Positions 6,976-12,326 of a DNA stretch of 64,000 nucleotides are shown here, one piece after another (positions within the stretch are counted from its first letter, which is position 1; every line of letters begins with the position of its first letter). This DNA is from an uncultured Rhodospirillaceae bacterium (GTDB lineage: Bacteria; Pseudomonadota; Alphaproteobacteria; Reyranellales; Reyranellaceae): NCBI GenBank assembly GCA_945952105.1, contig CAMFGZ010000008.1, positions 124,001 through 188,000 of the forward strand, read 5' to 3'. The notes beneath the pieces were generated by a model, which saw only the letters and a list, made by a program, of their open reading frames with translations, did no database searches and was not told where the DNA came from. Made by a program: the position numbers and the translations under genes.

Positions 6976-8496
6976 CTAGGCTTCGTTGCGGCCGAGCCGC
7001 ATGTCGAGGTCGAACGGGTAGAGCGGCCGCTTGACCCGTTCGTACTTGAACAGCTTGAGGTCGGAGGCGGTGCAGCCGTCGCCGTCACACATCACGATGT
7101 GCTTGGCGATGGGCTCGAAGCCGGCGCGGAAATGCTGGCGCGACTTGATCAGCACGTACTTCTTGCGGCGCGGATCGATGCCGCAATGGGTGAAGACGCC
7201 GAGATCGTAGGGCTCGGCGCGCTTCTCGGAGACGACGATCTGCATCCTGCCGGTGTCGAGCACGGCGGTGCGGCCCATGCGGACGGTGGTGCCGGTCGCC
7301 ATCGGGCCAGTCACGACGAACTGGCCGTCGGTGATCGCCTTCACCTTGCCAGTGATCTTGAGCGGCTTGCCCTTCAGGCCCATGGCCGGCATGTCGATCT
7401 TGCCGCCCAGTTCGAGCGTCACTTCGGCGCCGACGCCGGCCTTGATCATCTGCTCGACGCAGGCCGGGTCGCAGATCGGGCCGGCACAGGCATCCTCGAG
7501 CTCCTGCTTGATGGCCTCCTCGATGACACTCATCACGTCCTGGGTGCCGCCCGACGCGGTGTTGTCGCCGTGGTCGGCCATGACGACGGGATAATCCGTG
7601 TAGCCCTTGGCGCGGCCGACCTGGACCGACAGCGGCTCGGGATGGAACAGGAAGCCTTCGCGCTTCTCCCACGCGGTATCGAGGATCTTGTTGAGCAGGA
7701 TCTCGCCCTCGGCCGTGCGCTTGTCGCAGACGATAACCGAGGACAAAGCGAGGTGAGGGATGTCGGCCTGCGGGAAGCCGCCAAACACCGAGGCATTGAG
7801 CACCGCGCCGGTATCCTCGGCCTGGTTGGCCATCCCCATGAGAGTCTTCATCGGCTCGCGCGAGGGCGTGTGGACCAGCGAACTGCTCATGATCGGGCGG
7901 TTGCCCCAGACCATCTTCGGCTCGACCTCGCCGGCCATCATCCGGATCAGGGTGCGGCCGGCGCGGCGGGCCGTGTCGGCCATGTCGATATGGGGATAGG
8001 TGCGATAGCCCGTCATGATGGTCGCGCCGTTCACCATCGCGTCGGTCATCTGCGTGTGGAAATCGAGGGCCACCGCAATCGGCACGCCGGGAGCGATCTT
8101 GCGGATGCGGTTCAGCAGCTCGCCCTCGCCGTCGTCATAATGCTCGGCCACCATTGCACCGTGCAGGGCGAGCAGGACGGCGTCGCAGCCCTTCTTCACC
8201 TCGTCGACGATGGCGGTCGTCATCTGCTCGTATGCCGCTTTCGTGACCAGGCCCGATGGATGGGCAGAGGCGGCCATCGGGACAGTGAACTCGGCTCCGG
8301 CCTTGCGCGCCACCTCGATGAAGCCGCCGAGGGACGTGTTGGTGCCTTCGGCCTCGTTGATGGCCGAGGGTCCGTTCAGGGCCCCCAGCCCGCCGCCTCG
8401 GGCGAAGGACTCGATCGGCGTGGGCAGCGGCGAGAACGTATTGGTCTCGTGCATCATCATTGCGACTACGAACTTCTTGGCCAACAACCCCTCCAT
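6976..8496 (-). CDS. M81 family metallopeptidase (MlrC-like)
   Basis: VAMMMHETNTFSPLPT, LLALHGAMVAEHYDDGEGELL, ADHGDNTASGGTQD. Confidence 0.85.
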   Translation of the reverse strand: MEGLLAKKFVVAMMMHETNTFSPLPTPIESFARGGGLGALNGPSAINEAEGTNTSLGGFIEVARKAGAEFTVPMAASAHPSGLVTKAAYEQMTTAIVDEVKKGCDAVLLALHGAMVAEHYDDGEGELLNRIRKIAPGVPIAVALDFHTQMTDAMVNGATIMTGYRTYPHIDMADTARRAGRTLIRMMAGEVEPKMVWGNRPIMSSSLVHTPSREPMKTLMGMANQAEDTGAVLNASVFGGFPQADIPHLALSSVIVCDKRTAEGEILLNKILDTAWEKREGFLFHPEPLSVQVGRAKGYTDYPVVMADHGDNTASGGTQDVMSVIEEAIKQELEDACAGPICDPACVEQMIKAGVGAEVTLELGGKIDMPAMGLKGKPLKITGKVKAITDGQFVVTGPMATGTTVRMGRTAVLDTGRMQIVVSEKRAEPYDLGVFTHCGIDPRRKKYVLIKSRQHFRAGFEPIAKHIVMCDGDGCTASDLKLFKYERVKRPLYPFDLDMRLGRNEA

Positions 8497-8700
8497 CCCG
8501 GGCTTAAGTGTTTGAACACACTACAAAAACGCACACCTCGCGCGTTTGCTGAAGCAATGCACCTCGTGCAAGGCTGCATCGCACTATTCTTGTGCGTTGC
8601 AAAAACAACACACCCAGTCCCAGACATCAACGAACGCTAAATATGTGAATTCAGGGATCTTTTTCGCTCTTGCATTCTCTTCGCAGGTGCACCATTCTTA

Positions 8701-8803
8701 GCGGGCAGCAAACGCTACCTCGGTAGCCTCTTTGTTTGCTGTATGCCCGTCTTGGGCGTTTCCTCCCTAAACTCGGGCCGTGCTTGTCACGGCCCCTTTT
8801 TTT
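8701..8803 (+). ncRNA. Candidate small RNA with 5' stem-loop, unpaired CCUCCCU segment and intrinsic terminator
   Basis: Stem-loop cgggca/gcaaac/gctacc-tc-ggtagc/gtttgc/tgcccg (8702-8749), unpaired gtttcctccctaaact, then terminator gggccgtg-cttgt-cacggccc-c-ttttttt (8775-8803); intergenic, no ORF. Confidence 0.65.
8775..8803 (+). terminator. Rho-independent terminator of the candidate sRNA
   Basis: Perfect 8-bp stem, 5-nt loop, 7-T tail. Confidence 0.85.
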
Positions 8804-8838
8804 GCCCGAACGGCTGATCGTGGGCGCCAGCGCTGCCC

Positions 8839-9738
8839 TTATTCGGCGGCAAGGGGATGGGGCTGCAGCGTTTCCAGTGCTTGCCGGCCCATCTCCTCCA
8901 GCAGACCGGTGATCAGCGTGGCGAAGACGCCGGCCACCGGCAGCCGCTCGTGCCGTGCCTCATCCATGTAGAGCGCCCGGTTGATCTCGATCTGGAGTGT
9001 ATGCCGGGCCAAGGCCGGTCGGCCGTAGCGTTGCGTCGTGAAACCGCCGGCATAAGGCTGGTTTCTCAGGACTCGCAGGCCCCGTGCGCGAAACCAGCGT
9101 TCCGCCGCCAGCACGAGTTCGGGCGAGCAGGCCTCGCCGTGATTGTCGCCCAGCACGATGTCGACCCGCTGGTCCCGGTCGCGCGAACCGAGGCCGGAGA
9201 CGGAGGAGGGCATCGAGTGGGCATCGATCAGCAAGGCCCCACCGAACGAGCTGTAGGTATTTTCCACCAGCAGCGAGAGAGCCTGGTGATAGGGGCGCCA
9301 GCAGGTTTCCAGGCGGTGCTCGATGGTTTCGGCCGGGACGCGGCCGCGATAGATCGCCTCGCCGCTCGCCGCGACGCGGGGGATCATGCCGAGCCCCGCC
9401 GCAACGCGGGTGGTGCGGTGGTTCAGGGGGCGGGGCAGCGGCCCCTCGAACATCCCCGGGTCCAACTCGTAGGGCTCGCGATTGGCATCGACATAGGAAC
9501 GAGGAAAGCGCGCGGCCAGGAACGGTATGCCCAGCGACGGGGCTGCAGCGAAAAGCTCGTCGACGAAGGCATCCTCGGCGCGGCGCAGCGCGGAAAGCGG
9601 AACGACCGCCTGTTCGAGAAAGGCCGCAGGATAGATCGAGCCGCTGTGCGGCGAAGCGACGACCACGGGAACCGTCTGGCGGGCGGGGAGCCGGCAATCC
9701 AGGGCCTCGTGGTCGGGCAGGACCGGAAGAAAATCCAT
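8839..9738 (-). CDS. N-formylglutamate amidohydrolase family protein
   Basis: VVVASPHSGSIYPAAF, DAFVDELFAAAP, YVDANREPYELDPGMF, LIDAHSMPS, ALARHTLQIEINRALYM. Confidence 0.85.
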   Translation of the reverse strand: MDFLPVLPDHEALDCRLPARQTVPVVVASPHSGSIYPAAFLEQAVVPLSALRRAEDAFVDELFAAAPSLGIPFLAARFPRSYVDANREPYELDPGMFEGPLPRPLNHRTTRVAAGLGMIPRVAASGEAIYRGRVPAETIEHRLETCWRPYHQALSLLVENTYSSFGGALLIDAHSMPSSVSGLGSRDRDQRVDIVLGDNHGEACSPELVLAAERWFRARGLRVLRNQPYAGGFTTQRYGRPALARHTLQIEINRALYMDEARHERLPVAGVFATLITGLLEEMGRQALETLQPHPLAAE

Positions 9739-9864: not shown

Positions 9865-9939
9865 GGGCGCGTAGCTCAGCGGTAGAGCACTGTCTTGACA
9901 TGGCAGTGGCCACAGGTTCGATCCCTGTCGCGCCCACCA
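9865..9939 (+). tRNA. tRNA-Val (anticodon GAC), intact cloverleaf with encoded CCA
   Basis: Acceptor GGGCGCG/CGCGCCC, D stem GCTC/GAGC, anticodon arm CTGTC-TTGACAT-GGCAG, T arm ACAGG-TTCGATC-CCTGT, ACCA 3' end. Confidence 0.93.
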
Positions 9940-9944
9940 TCGCC
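9867..9944 (+). repeat. Left attachment site (78-bp direct repeat, within the intact tRNA-Val)
   Basis: gcgcgtagctcagcggtagagcactgtcttgacatggcagtggccacaggttcgatccctgtcgcgcccaccatcgcc, identical to 22075-22152. Confidence 0.95.
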
Positions 9945-10504
9945 TCCGACCACGGTTGGGTCGGAAAAGCCTGCTACGGCAGCAAAATACGTTCTTTCAG
10001 CACCAGCCCTGAGGTTCCGGTCACGAACATGATCAGGCAGCCCCGAATGGGCATCTGTCAACCCACGCGGCGACCGATTGTGACCGGCGGTGTGACCGTC
10101 TTTGCCTTGGGATCAGCATGGATTCGCGAGGTGGAGCGACACGGTTAGTAGGGCAGGAAGGGGGGGATGATTTTCCTGGTGCGGCGGTCCGAGGCGGTTT
10201 CATAGATGCAAATTTGGCTGAATGAAAATTTGGATAATTCGGACCTTTCAAACTGCGCCATGGACTGCTCGGGCCGGTTCCAAAGCGCCGTATGGGTTCT
10301 CACCGGTCGGACGTGGGACCAACTGCGGAGTAGGCACTGGCCGGAGAGGAATATCGGCTTCGCAGCCTGAAGCCCTAGCCACGCCCTTGACGTTTGAGAG
10401 GGAAGTACCTAATTTCAGAGCACGCGCACCAAGGTGTGCACCGATATAAAGGCAACGCTCAGGCGTACAGGGCAATTCTGGTTCGTCCAGCTTGCTTCAA
10501 AGCC

Positions 10505-11313
10505 TCAAGCCGCGCCTCCCCTACGTAACACGGGCCGCCTTTTTGGCGGCCCGATGTATTTGGGGACATCCTTCACGAACGGAAGGTAGACCTTGAAGAC
10601 CCGGTGCTTCAGGTCGTTCCATGTTCTCTTCGTAAGCCGTTGATGGATCGCCGGACGATTACCGCCGGTGATGTGATGCTTCGGATCGAGCGTGTCGATC
10701 ATCGCGTGAAGCACGGTTGTATAGCGAAGAAGTTCTTGTCGCTCGGTTGTATGAAGCGTGCGGGTGATCACGGTCAGCAACGGCGCCAGCCACCGCCGCG
10801 ACACTCCATTGTCATCTTCGAAGCTCGCCACGAATGCGATGAACGTCCGAGGCTGATTTTTGTCGTCAAGCAGGCATTCGCCAATCGCCCGCTGTTGGAC
10901 GCGGTTCACGATCCTCACACGTCCCGACTCCAGGCAATCCAGAAACGTCTTGAGTTGCCTGCCACGCTCGGTTTCCGCCATCTGGACCGACATGCCGTCG
11001 TGCCGAATGCGCTCGATGCGAGCCCAGAAAATTCCGAAGAGATACGCCAGGCTTCCGAGGTCGTGGTTTCGTAGACAGTCGCGATCCGCACGTACGTGAT
11101 GGACAGGCCGGAAGTCCTCCGTCGCCAATGAGCGTAATTTGGAGAAGAGCTCGTCGGTTGCCTTGAGTAGCGGATCAAGGTGCTGCTGTACGAATTGCTC
11201 GCGAGCGTCGGCTTGAGCTTTCCGTTTCGCGAAGTAGCCGATTACGGCTCCCCCTATCTTTACGGCCGCACCACCCGAGAGGAAGGTGATGACATCTTTC
11301 CAAGGAATATCCA
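10505..11313 (-). CDS. Hypothetical protein with N-terminal hydrophobic/TM segment
   Basis: Long island ORF; probable GTG start at 11313 (VDIPWKDVITFLSGGAAVKIGGAVIGYFAKRKAQADAREQF); track start 11464 overlaps the neighbouring gene. Confidence 0.55.
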
Positions 11314-11420
11314 CGCAAGCGCCCCCGCCTTTTTCATATACGCTATGCCCATCAGGCGCGGGCCACCATCCCCATGCACTCTCGCCCTTGAGCGATGCGA
11401 TGCCCGAGTATTTGCGACCG

Positions 11421-11939
11421 CTAAGTGGGCTTATGGGCCTTGATGTACGTCGCGTCAGGGCCAAGAGAGTCTAGGTACTCCTCCCATCTCTTGATGCCAC
11501 CGAGGTCCATGCCCGCCTCTCGCGCATCCCACGAGACTTCGCGAATATCGTCGTTGAATGCCTCAATCTCGGCTGGCGCTCGTTCGTCAGTCACCAATTT
11601 CTTGTCCTTCCGCCGCACGTAGCTGCGGCGGAAGATACTTGTTTCGGCATCAACCCATAGGTGAGCGTGGGCAAAATTGTTGCGATCATCCAAGAACTCA
11701 CGCGCATTCTTAACGATCTTCTCCAGTCGCGCGCGTGTCTTCGGCTCCTGCTTCTTGGCAACCGCGTCCAGCATCTTGAGCTTTTCGTCGAGGTACTTGG
11801 CTTCATCGTCAGGCTTCGCTTCGCCCATGACATCAAGGATGTAATAGATGTTCGCTTCGAGCGAGTTCATGCCAAGGATGACGAGTCCGATCGAGCGCGC
11901 GTAAGCCTCGTACTTTTCGATGAATTGGTCAGTGTTCAC
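11421..11939 (-). CDS. Hypothetical protein with HEPN-like RX4H motif
   Basis: MNTDQFIEKYEAYARSIGLVILGMNSLEANIYYILD...EFLDDRNNFAHAHLWVD; RNNFAH fits the RX4-6H HEPN motif. Confidence 0.6.
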   Translation of the reverse strand: MNTDQFIEKYEAYARSIGLVILGMNSLEANIYYILDVMGEAKPDDEAKYLDEKLKMLDAVAKKQEPKTRARLEKIVKNAREFLDDRNNFAHAHLWVDAETSIFRRSYVRRKDKKLVTDERAPAEIEAFNDDIREVSWDAREAGMDLGGIKRWEEYLDSLGPDATYIKAHKPT

Positions 11940-12326
11940 GACAAGCCTCCGCTATCCCCAGCCGCGTCAGATGTACTCGCGATGTGCGGATACGCGACCA
12001 TAATAGACAGCAACGTGCTCTGGAGAGCGCTACATTGTTTCTGCTGTGGTCAAAAATAAACCTCAGTCCGTAAACGCCGTATTCTCCCTTGTGGAGCAAT
12101 GGATGCCGCTTGGTCGGGTACCAGTATTCTATTCTATTTTCTCTACAGATTGGCGCAGCAATCCTCTTCAGCCTCCGGACATTTGAGGCACAGATCTGGG
12201 AAATGAAGATCGACGGCTGGCCACGCTAACGCATCAGAAACGGTGCTGAGGTAATCGTGCGCGTCCCCGAGTTCTTCTGTGAATCCGAGGAGGCACGAAA
12301 CGAGTTTCTAACCGATGCGGCACCCC

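Follow-up and report, generated by a model that had tools for sequence, protein, structure and literature searches.

The RNA encoded at 8705-8803 on the forward strand of the window, the stretch of 64,000 nucleotides that was analysed, belongs to the known αR8/MmgR family of small RNAs; it is conserved and carries a 5' stem specific to the genus. With high confidence we regard it as the Reyranella orthologue of αR8 (MmgR, SisA, RF00519), acting by seed pairing. The Rfam covariance model RF00519 (suhB, described as MmgR; αR8), whose cut-off is 41 bits, scored 60.5 bits at positions 8738-8810 (+), and the match spanned the model from end to end (1-77 of 77). The first-pass annotation had proposed a small RNA that acts in trans, carries an anti-Shine-Dalgarno segment and ends in a terminator, and conservation and covariation both support this proposal. 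It had also called the RNA unannotated and its membership of a known family not shown, a description overturned by the very Rfam search that it suggested. In work on Caulobacter crescentus, members of αR8 have been described by the 10-mer 5'-UUUCCUCCCU-3' located 3' of a weak hairpin, by a terminator, and by a usual site beside the gene for N-formylglutamate amidohydrolase (FGase) (PMC12559287). All three traits were found at the 8705-8803 locus, whose features are collected in Table 1.

Table 1. Features of the αR8 locus and its surroundings, with the basis of each assignment.
Feature	Position	Strand	Basis or remark
M81/MlrC-type peptidase gene	6976-8496	-	Upstream neighbour of the sRNA
Second PhaR-like core, TGCATCGCA	8575-8583		Predicted; less conserved
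PhaR (AniA)-like operator core, TGCGTTGCA, matching YGCRNYGCR	8593-8601		Predicted; near-invariant in 34 aligned loci
Putative promoter: -35 TTGCAT (8670-8675), 17-nt spacer, -10 CATTCT (8693-8698)	8670-8698	+	Sequence; conservation in the genus
αR8/MmgR-family sRNA, about 99 nt	8705-8803	+	RF00519; start placed from -10 spacing and onset of conservation
5' stem-loop: GCAGCAAAC/GUUUGCUGU, then GCUAC-CUCG-GUAGC, with 6-nt bulge CUCUUU	8705-8742	+	MFE; compensatory changes
αR8 core hairpin, GCCC-GUCUU-GGGC	8745-8757	+	RF00519 structure line; invariant in 39 sequences
αR8 signature 10-mer, UUUCCUCCCU, unpaired anti-Shine-Dalgarno seed	8759-8768	+	Sequence; fold from 8705
Intrinsic terminator, 8-bp GC-rich stem and U-tract	8775-8803	+	Scan; Rfam; two pairs with compensatory changes
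FGase gene (PF05013)	8839-9738	-	Convergent to the sRNA; marks the canonical αR8 locus

The RF00519 match is the sole one in the 5.46-Mb genome, and no second αR8 copy was found there. In a search of 61 genomes (60 relatives plus that of the window), a match above the cut-off was present in 43. A DNA pattern composed of the 3' half of the 5' stem and the core recovered 56 contigs, mostly labelled as Reyranella, Enhydrobacter aerosaccus or Rhodospirillales MAGs. Some Reyranella genomes (G012, G031, G022, G004, G025 and G003) have a second αR8-like locus (L038-L043) that lacks the GCAGCAAAC 5' stem; these loci contain the same 10-mer, except for L042, in which it is changed.

The 3' ends of the sRNA and of the convergent FGase gene are 36 nt apart. 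This arrangement was found in every Reyranella locus with sufficient downstream sequence and also in L003, L004 and L013, three loci that belong to other families. Adjacency to FGase is on record for most αR8 genes that occur as a single copy (PMC12559287). The short distance to the FGase gene would suit a cis element in place of a free sRNA: a neighbouring gene's leader, or its long 3' UTR or terminator. However, the FGase and M81 genes that flank the RNA are both on the opposite strand, the RNA has a conserved promoter and terminator of its own, and its homologues are present at unrelated loci. Corbino et al. 2005 (PMC1273637) dismissed a cis interpretation of the family, and we give one almost no credence for this locus. 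Farther downstream, in the region 9865-12000, the ORFs that come after a tRNA gene (9865-9936), such as 10505-11464 and 11421-11939 (-), have no evident function and might be an island inserted beside that gene.

The likeness to AbcR RNAs noted in the first-pass annotation was upheld for the principle of masking by a CU-rich segment and set aside for the family, which is αR8/MmgR (RF00519) and not αr15. An AbcR-type (αr15) sRNA repressing ABC-transporter mRNAs would likewise present an unpaired CU-rich segment ahead of its terminator, and αr15 members are partly homologous to RF00519 (PMC7143759). Yet RF00519, matched over its full length, was the only Rfam family above threshold, and the RNA has a single unpaired CU-rich (CUCC-type) motif where AbcR has two (PMC7143759). 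The gene is also a single copy beside FGase, whereas AbcR genes occur as tandem copies beside lsrB. Among overlapping matches of the same clan only RF00519 was kept, one unnamed match of lower score being dropped; the other Rfam matches, SorY (21 bits) and anti-hemB (14 bits), were far below their cut-offs. We took the RF00519 match together with the single motif to rule out AbcR membership and consider that reading highly improbable. Compared with AbcR1 and AbcR2, the αR8 RNA of Reyranella thus shares a CU-rich anti-Shine-Dalgarno segment as its working principle and differs in covariance-model family, in number of motifs and in locus.

A promoter-like TTGCAT...CATTCT had been noticed earlier, and it is indeed present on the forward strand and conserved in the genus, although a generic sigma-70 scan made no promoter call at 8670-8698. 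Both hexamers and the length of the spacer are kept across the genus, and in the genus alignment the spacer contains an invariant TTCGC and a nearly invariant CGCAGGTGCACC. Given the position of the -10 element, the 5' end of the sRNA likely lies near G8705, and most of the 8701-8706 strand would therefore fall outside the RNA. The terminator claimed in the first-pass annotation is present and covarying, and consists of GGGCCGTG-CTTGT-CACGGCCC (8775-8795) followed by CTTTTTTT (8796-8803). From these elements we infer transcription of approximately 8705-8803 (+) from the RNA's own promoter to its intrinsic terminator.

Positions 8701-8803 folded far better than dinucleotide shuffles (z -5.1; 0 of 200), and positions 8705-8804 folded better still (z -7.0; 0 of 200 shuffles). 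From 8705 onward the fold is made of three hairpins, the 5' stem, the αR8 hairpin and the terminator. A 48-nt 5' hairpin of three helices had been described from the sequence, and while non-random folding of the stretch was confirmed, the outermost helix of that hairpin was not. This helix, GCGGGC/GCCCGU (8701-8706 with 8744-8749), was rejected as it is not conserved and its 5' strand lies partly upstream of the probable start. In congeners that strand reads GTGGAC, GGGTGC or GGGAGC, varying without compensation, and the helix is probably not fully transcribed. When the bases before 8705 are left out, a two-part 5' stem (8705-8742) and a separate GCCC-GUCUU-GGGC are formed, and the MFE structures of nearly all congeners are the same. 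The GCCC strand in relatives instead goes into the αR8 hairpin, GCCC(GUCUU)GGGC, which is the hairpin of the Rfam model and follows an independent 5' stem. That 5' stem lies mostly beyond the Rfam model, and other families carry different stems at this place. Among congeners, GCAGCAAAC is nearly invariant, and so is the whole segment that starts with GUUUGCUG and closes with the 10-mer.

Across 39 distinct sequences, 100% of cells in the corrected fold were paired, a percentage that leans towards the model because the rows are related and the fold was derived from the same sequences. The informative part of the covariation is the pairs in which both partners differ, for instance CG/UA and AU/GC in the upper portion of the 5' stem. 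Changes on both sides were found in six pairs. Four of these are among the 14 pairs of the 5' stem, which has 0 broken pairs in the 39 sequences, and the other two belong to the terminator; in slid-partner versions of the corrected fold no pair had double-sided changes in the same 39 sequences. Covariation in homologues, the lack of which had been named beforehand as counting against the RNA, therefore came out in its favour, with zero broken pairs. The αR8 hairpin, being invariant in all 39 sequences, gives no covariation evidence either way.

The 10-mer at 8759-8768 is identical to that stated for all αR8 RNAs (PMC12559287) and is invariant in the 39 sequences; of 48 related loci, paralogues and loci from other families among them, 47 retain it intact. 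The 10-mer is single-stranded in the fold from 8705 and corresponds to the unpaired anti-Shine-Dalgarno segment that had been proposed. In Caulobacter, compensatory mutation has proven that SisA represses translation by pairing its 10-mer with the stretch ahead of the start codon, and SisA and CrfA inhibit each other in a strongly Hfq-dependent manner (PMC12559287). The Reyranella genome encodes Hfq, and the RNA most likely binds it; such Hfq dependence would be expected by analogy with MmgR and SisA. Through the exposed UUUCCUCCCU the RNA would base-pair with several mRNAs at Shine-Dalgarno sequences of the AGGGAGGAAA type, which would keep ribosomes from entering and promote mRNA decay. Repression of mRNAs by the Reyranella RNA is thus predicted from its relatives, and its transcription would probably be tied to carbon/PHB status via PhaR.

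We think it very improbable that the RNA is mainly a sponge partner or decoy, for example under a CrfA-like G/A-rich sRNA, rather than an mRNA repressor. CrfA does sequester the 10-mer in Caulobacter (PMC12559287), but SisA itself represses mRNA directly (PMC12559287), and there is no CrfA-like RNA among the Rfam matches of the window. The four RNAs SisA-D of Caulobacter crescentus, also αR8 (PMC12559287), have the identical 10-mer as the Reyranella αR8 RNA, and sisA is likewise downstream of an FGase gene; in contrast, one copy rather than four was found in the Reyranella genome.

With RF00519 "suhB" (Corbino et al. 2005), or MmgR of Sinorhizobium meliloti, the Reyranella RNA shares the full-length match, the 10-mer, the short hairpin before the 10-mer, the terminator and the FGase neighbour. 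It differs in being longer, at about 99 versus 77 nt, and in the addition of the genus-conserved 5' stem-loop (GCAGCAAAC...GUUUGCUGU), mostly beyond the model. In S. meliloti, MmgR restrains the build-up of PHB and is itself under repression by PhaR/AniA (PMC8401924, PMC12542648), which acts on mmgR via a box in its promoter (PMC12542648). The PhaR-like core in Reyranella lies upstream of the promoter and not, as in S. meliloti mmgR, within the spacer.

The interval 8497-8700 holds only two cores of the form YGCRNYGCR, a consensus taken from PMC12542648, and the 64-kb window holds 66. Both lie in the gap that separates the M81 gene from the promoter of the sRNA. The better conserved one, about 105 nt 5' of the inferred start, is matched as TGCATTGCG in L002, a locus from another family of the order near which no M81 gene was found. 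As L002 keeps the core without the M81 gene nearby, the RNA is favoured as the regulated gene. The -35/-10 spacer (8676-8692) holds CGCAGGTGCA (YGCRNNYGCR), which is one base wider than YGCRNYGCR and nearly invariant in the genus; the spacer of L002 has the same wider form, CGCGATCGCA, and those of L003 and L004 have the standard YGCRNYGCR. The genome encodes PhaR (PHB_acc_N) and three phasin-type proteins, and PhaR-type cores are also found upstream of two of its phasin genes. We judge the case for control of the sRNA by PhaR to be evenly balanced.

Direct αR8 targets have been demonstrated in Caulobacter only, as far as found in the literature. Phasin mRNAs were rejected as direct seed targets in the window's genome, their leaders forming poor duplexes with the seed, and the link between MmgR and phasins is therefore unsupported as a direct effect here. 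The genome has a large expansion of genes for TctC/Bug-family substrate-binding proteins (PF03401), 108 in total, and in many of these the ribosome-binding site is of the GGAGGAAAC type and thus complementary to the seed. Sites of the form AGGGAGGA-N(2-10)-ATG, which are perfect seed complements, precede Bug genes in 9 of 29 cases, compared with 1 of 30 for AAGGAGGA, a control Shine-Dalgarno sequence that mismatches the seed (Fisher p 0.005), and GGAGGAAAC sites do so in 8 of 25 cases versus 8 of 75 for other GGAGGAA sites (p 0.017; among 100 listed of 222 sites), in a test that was conceived after the list had been inspected and in which members of a gene family are not independent. The enrichment was not repeated in a congener (1/29 versus 0/30 among the loci listed). 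Being post hoc and unrepeated, it is a lead and not a finding, and Bug/TctC genes were kept as a hypothesis rather than as an established target class. A redirection of αR8 in Reyranella from PHB control to the damping of tripartite-tricarboxylate (Bug/TctC) uptake, in which the genus-specific 5' stem-loop would have brought a new role (stabilising the RNA, positioning Hfq or offering another site for pairing), is on the whole unlikely.

An αR8 sRNA is now firmly placed in Reyranella, with its locus, its structure and a PhaR-like box 5' of its promoter. The corrected fold means that a deletion or a seed mutant can be placed at the right bases.
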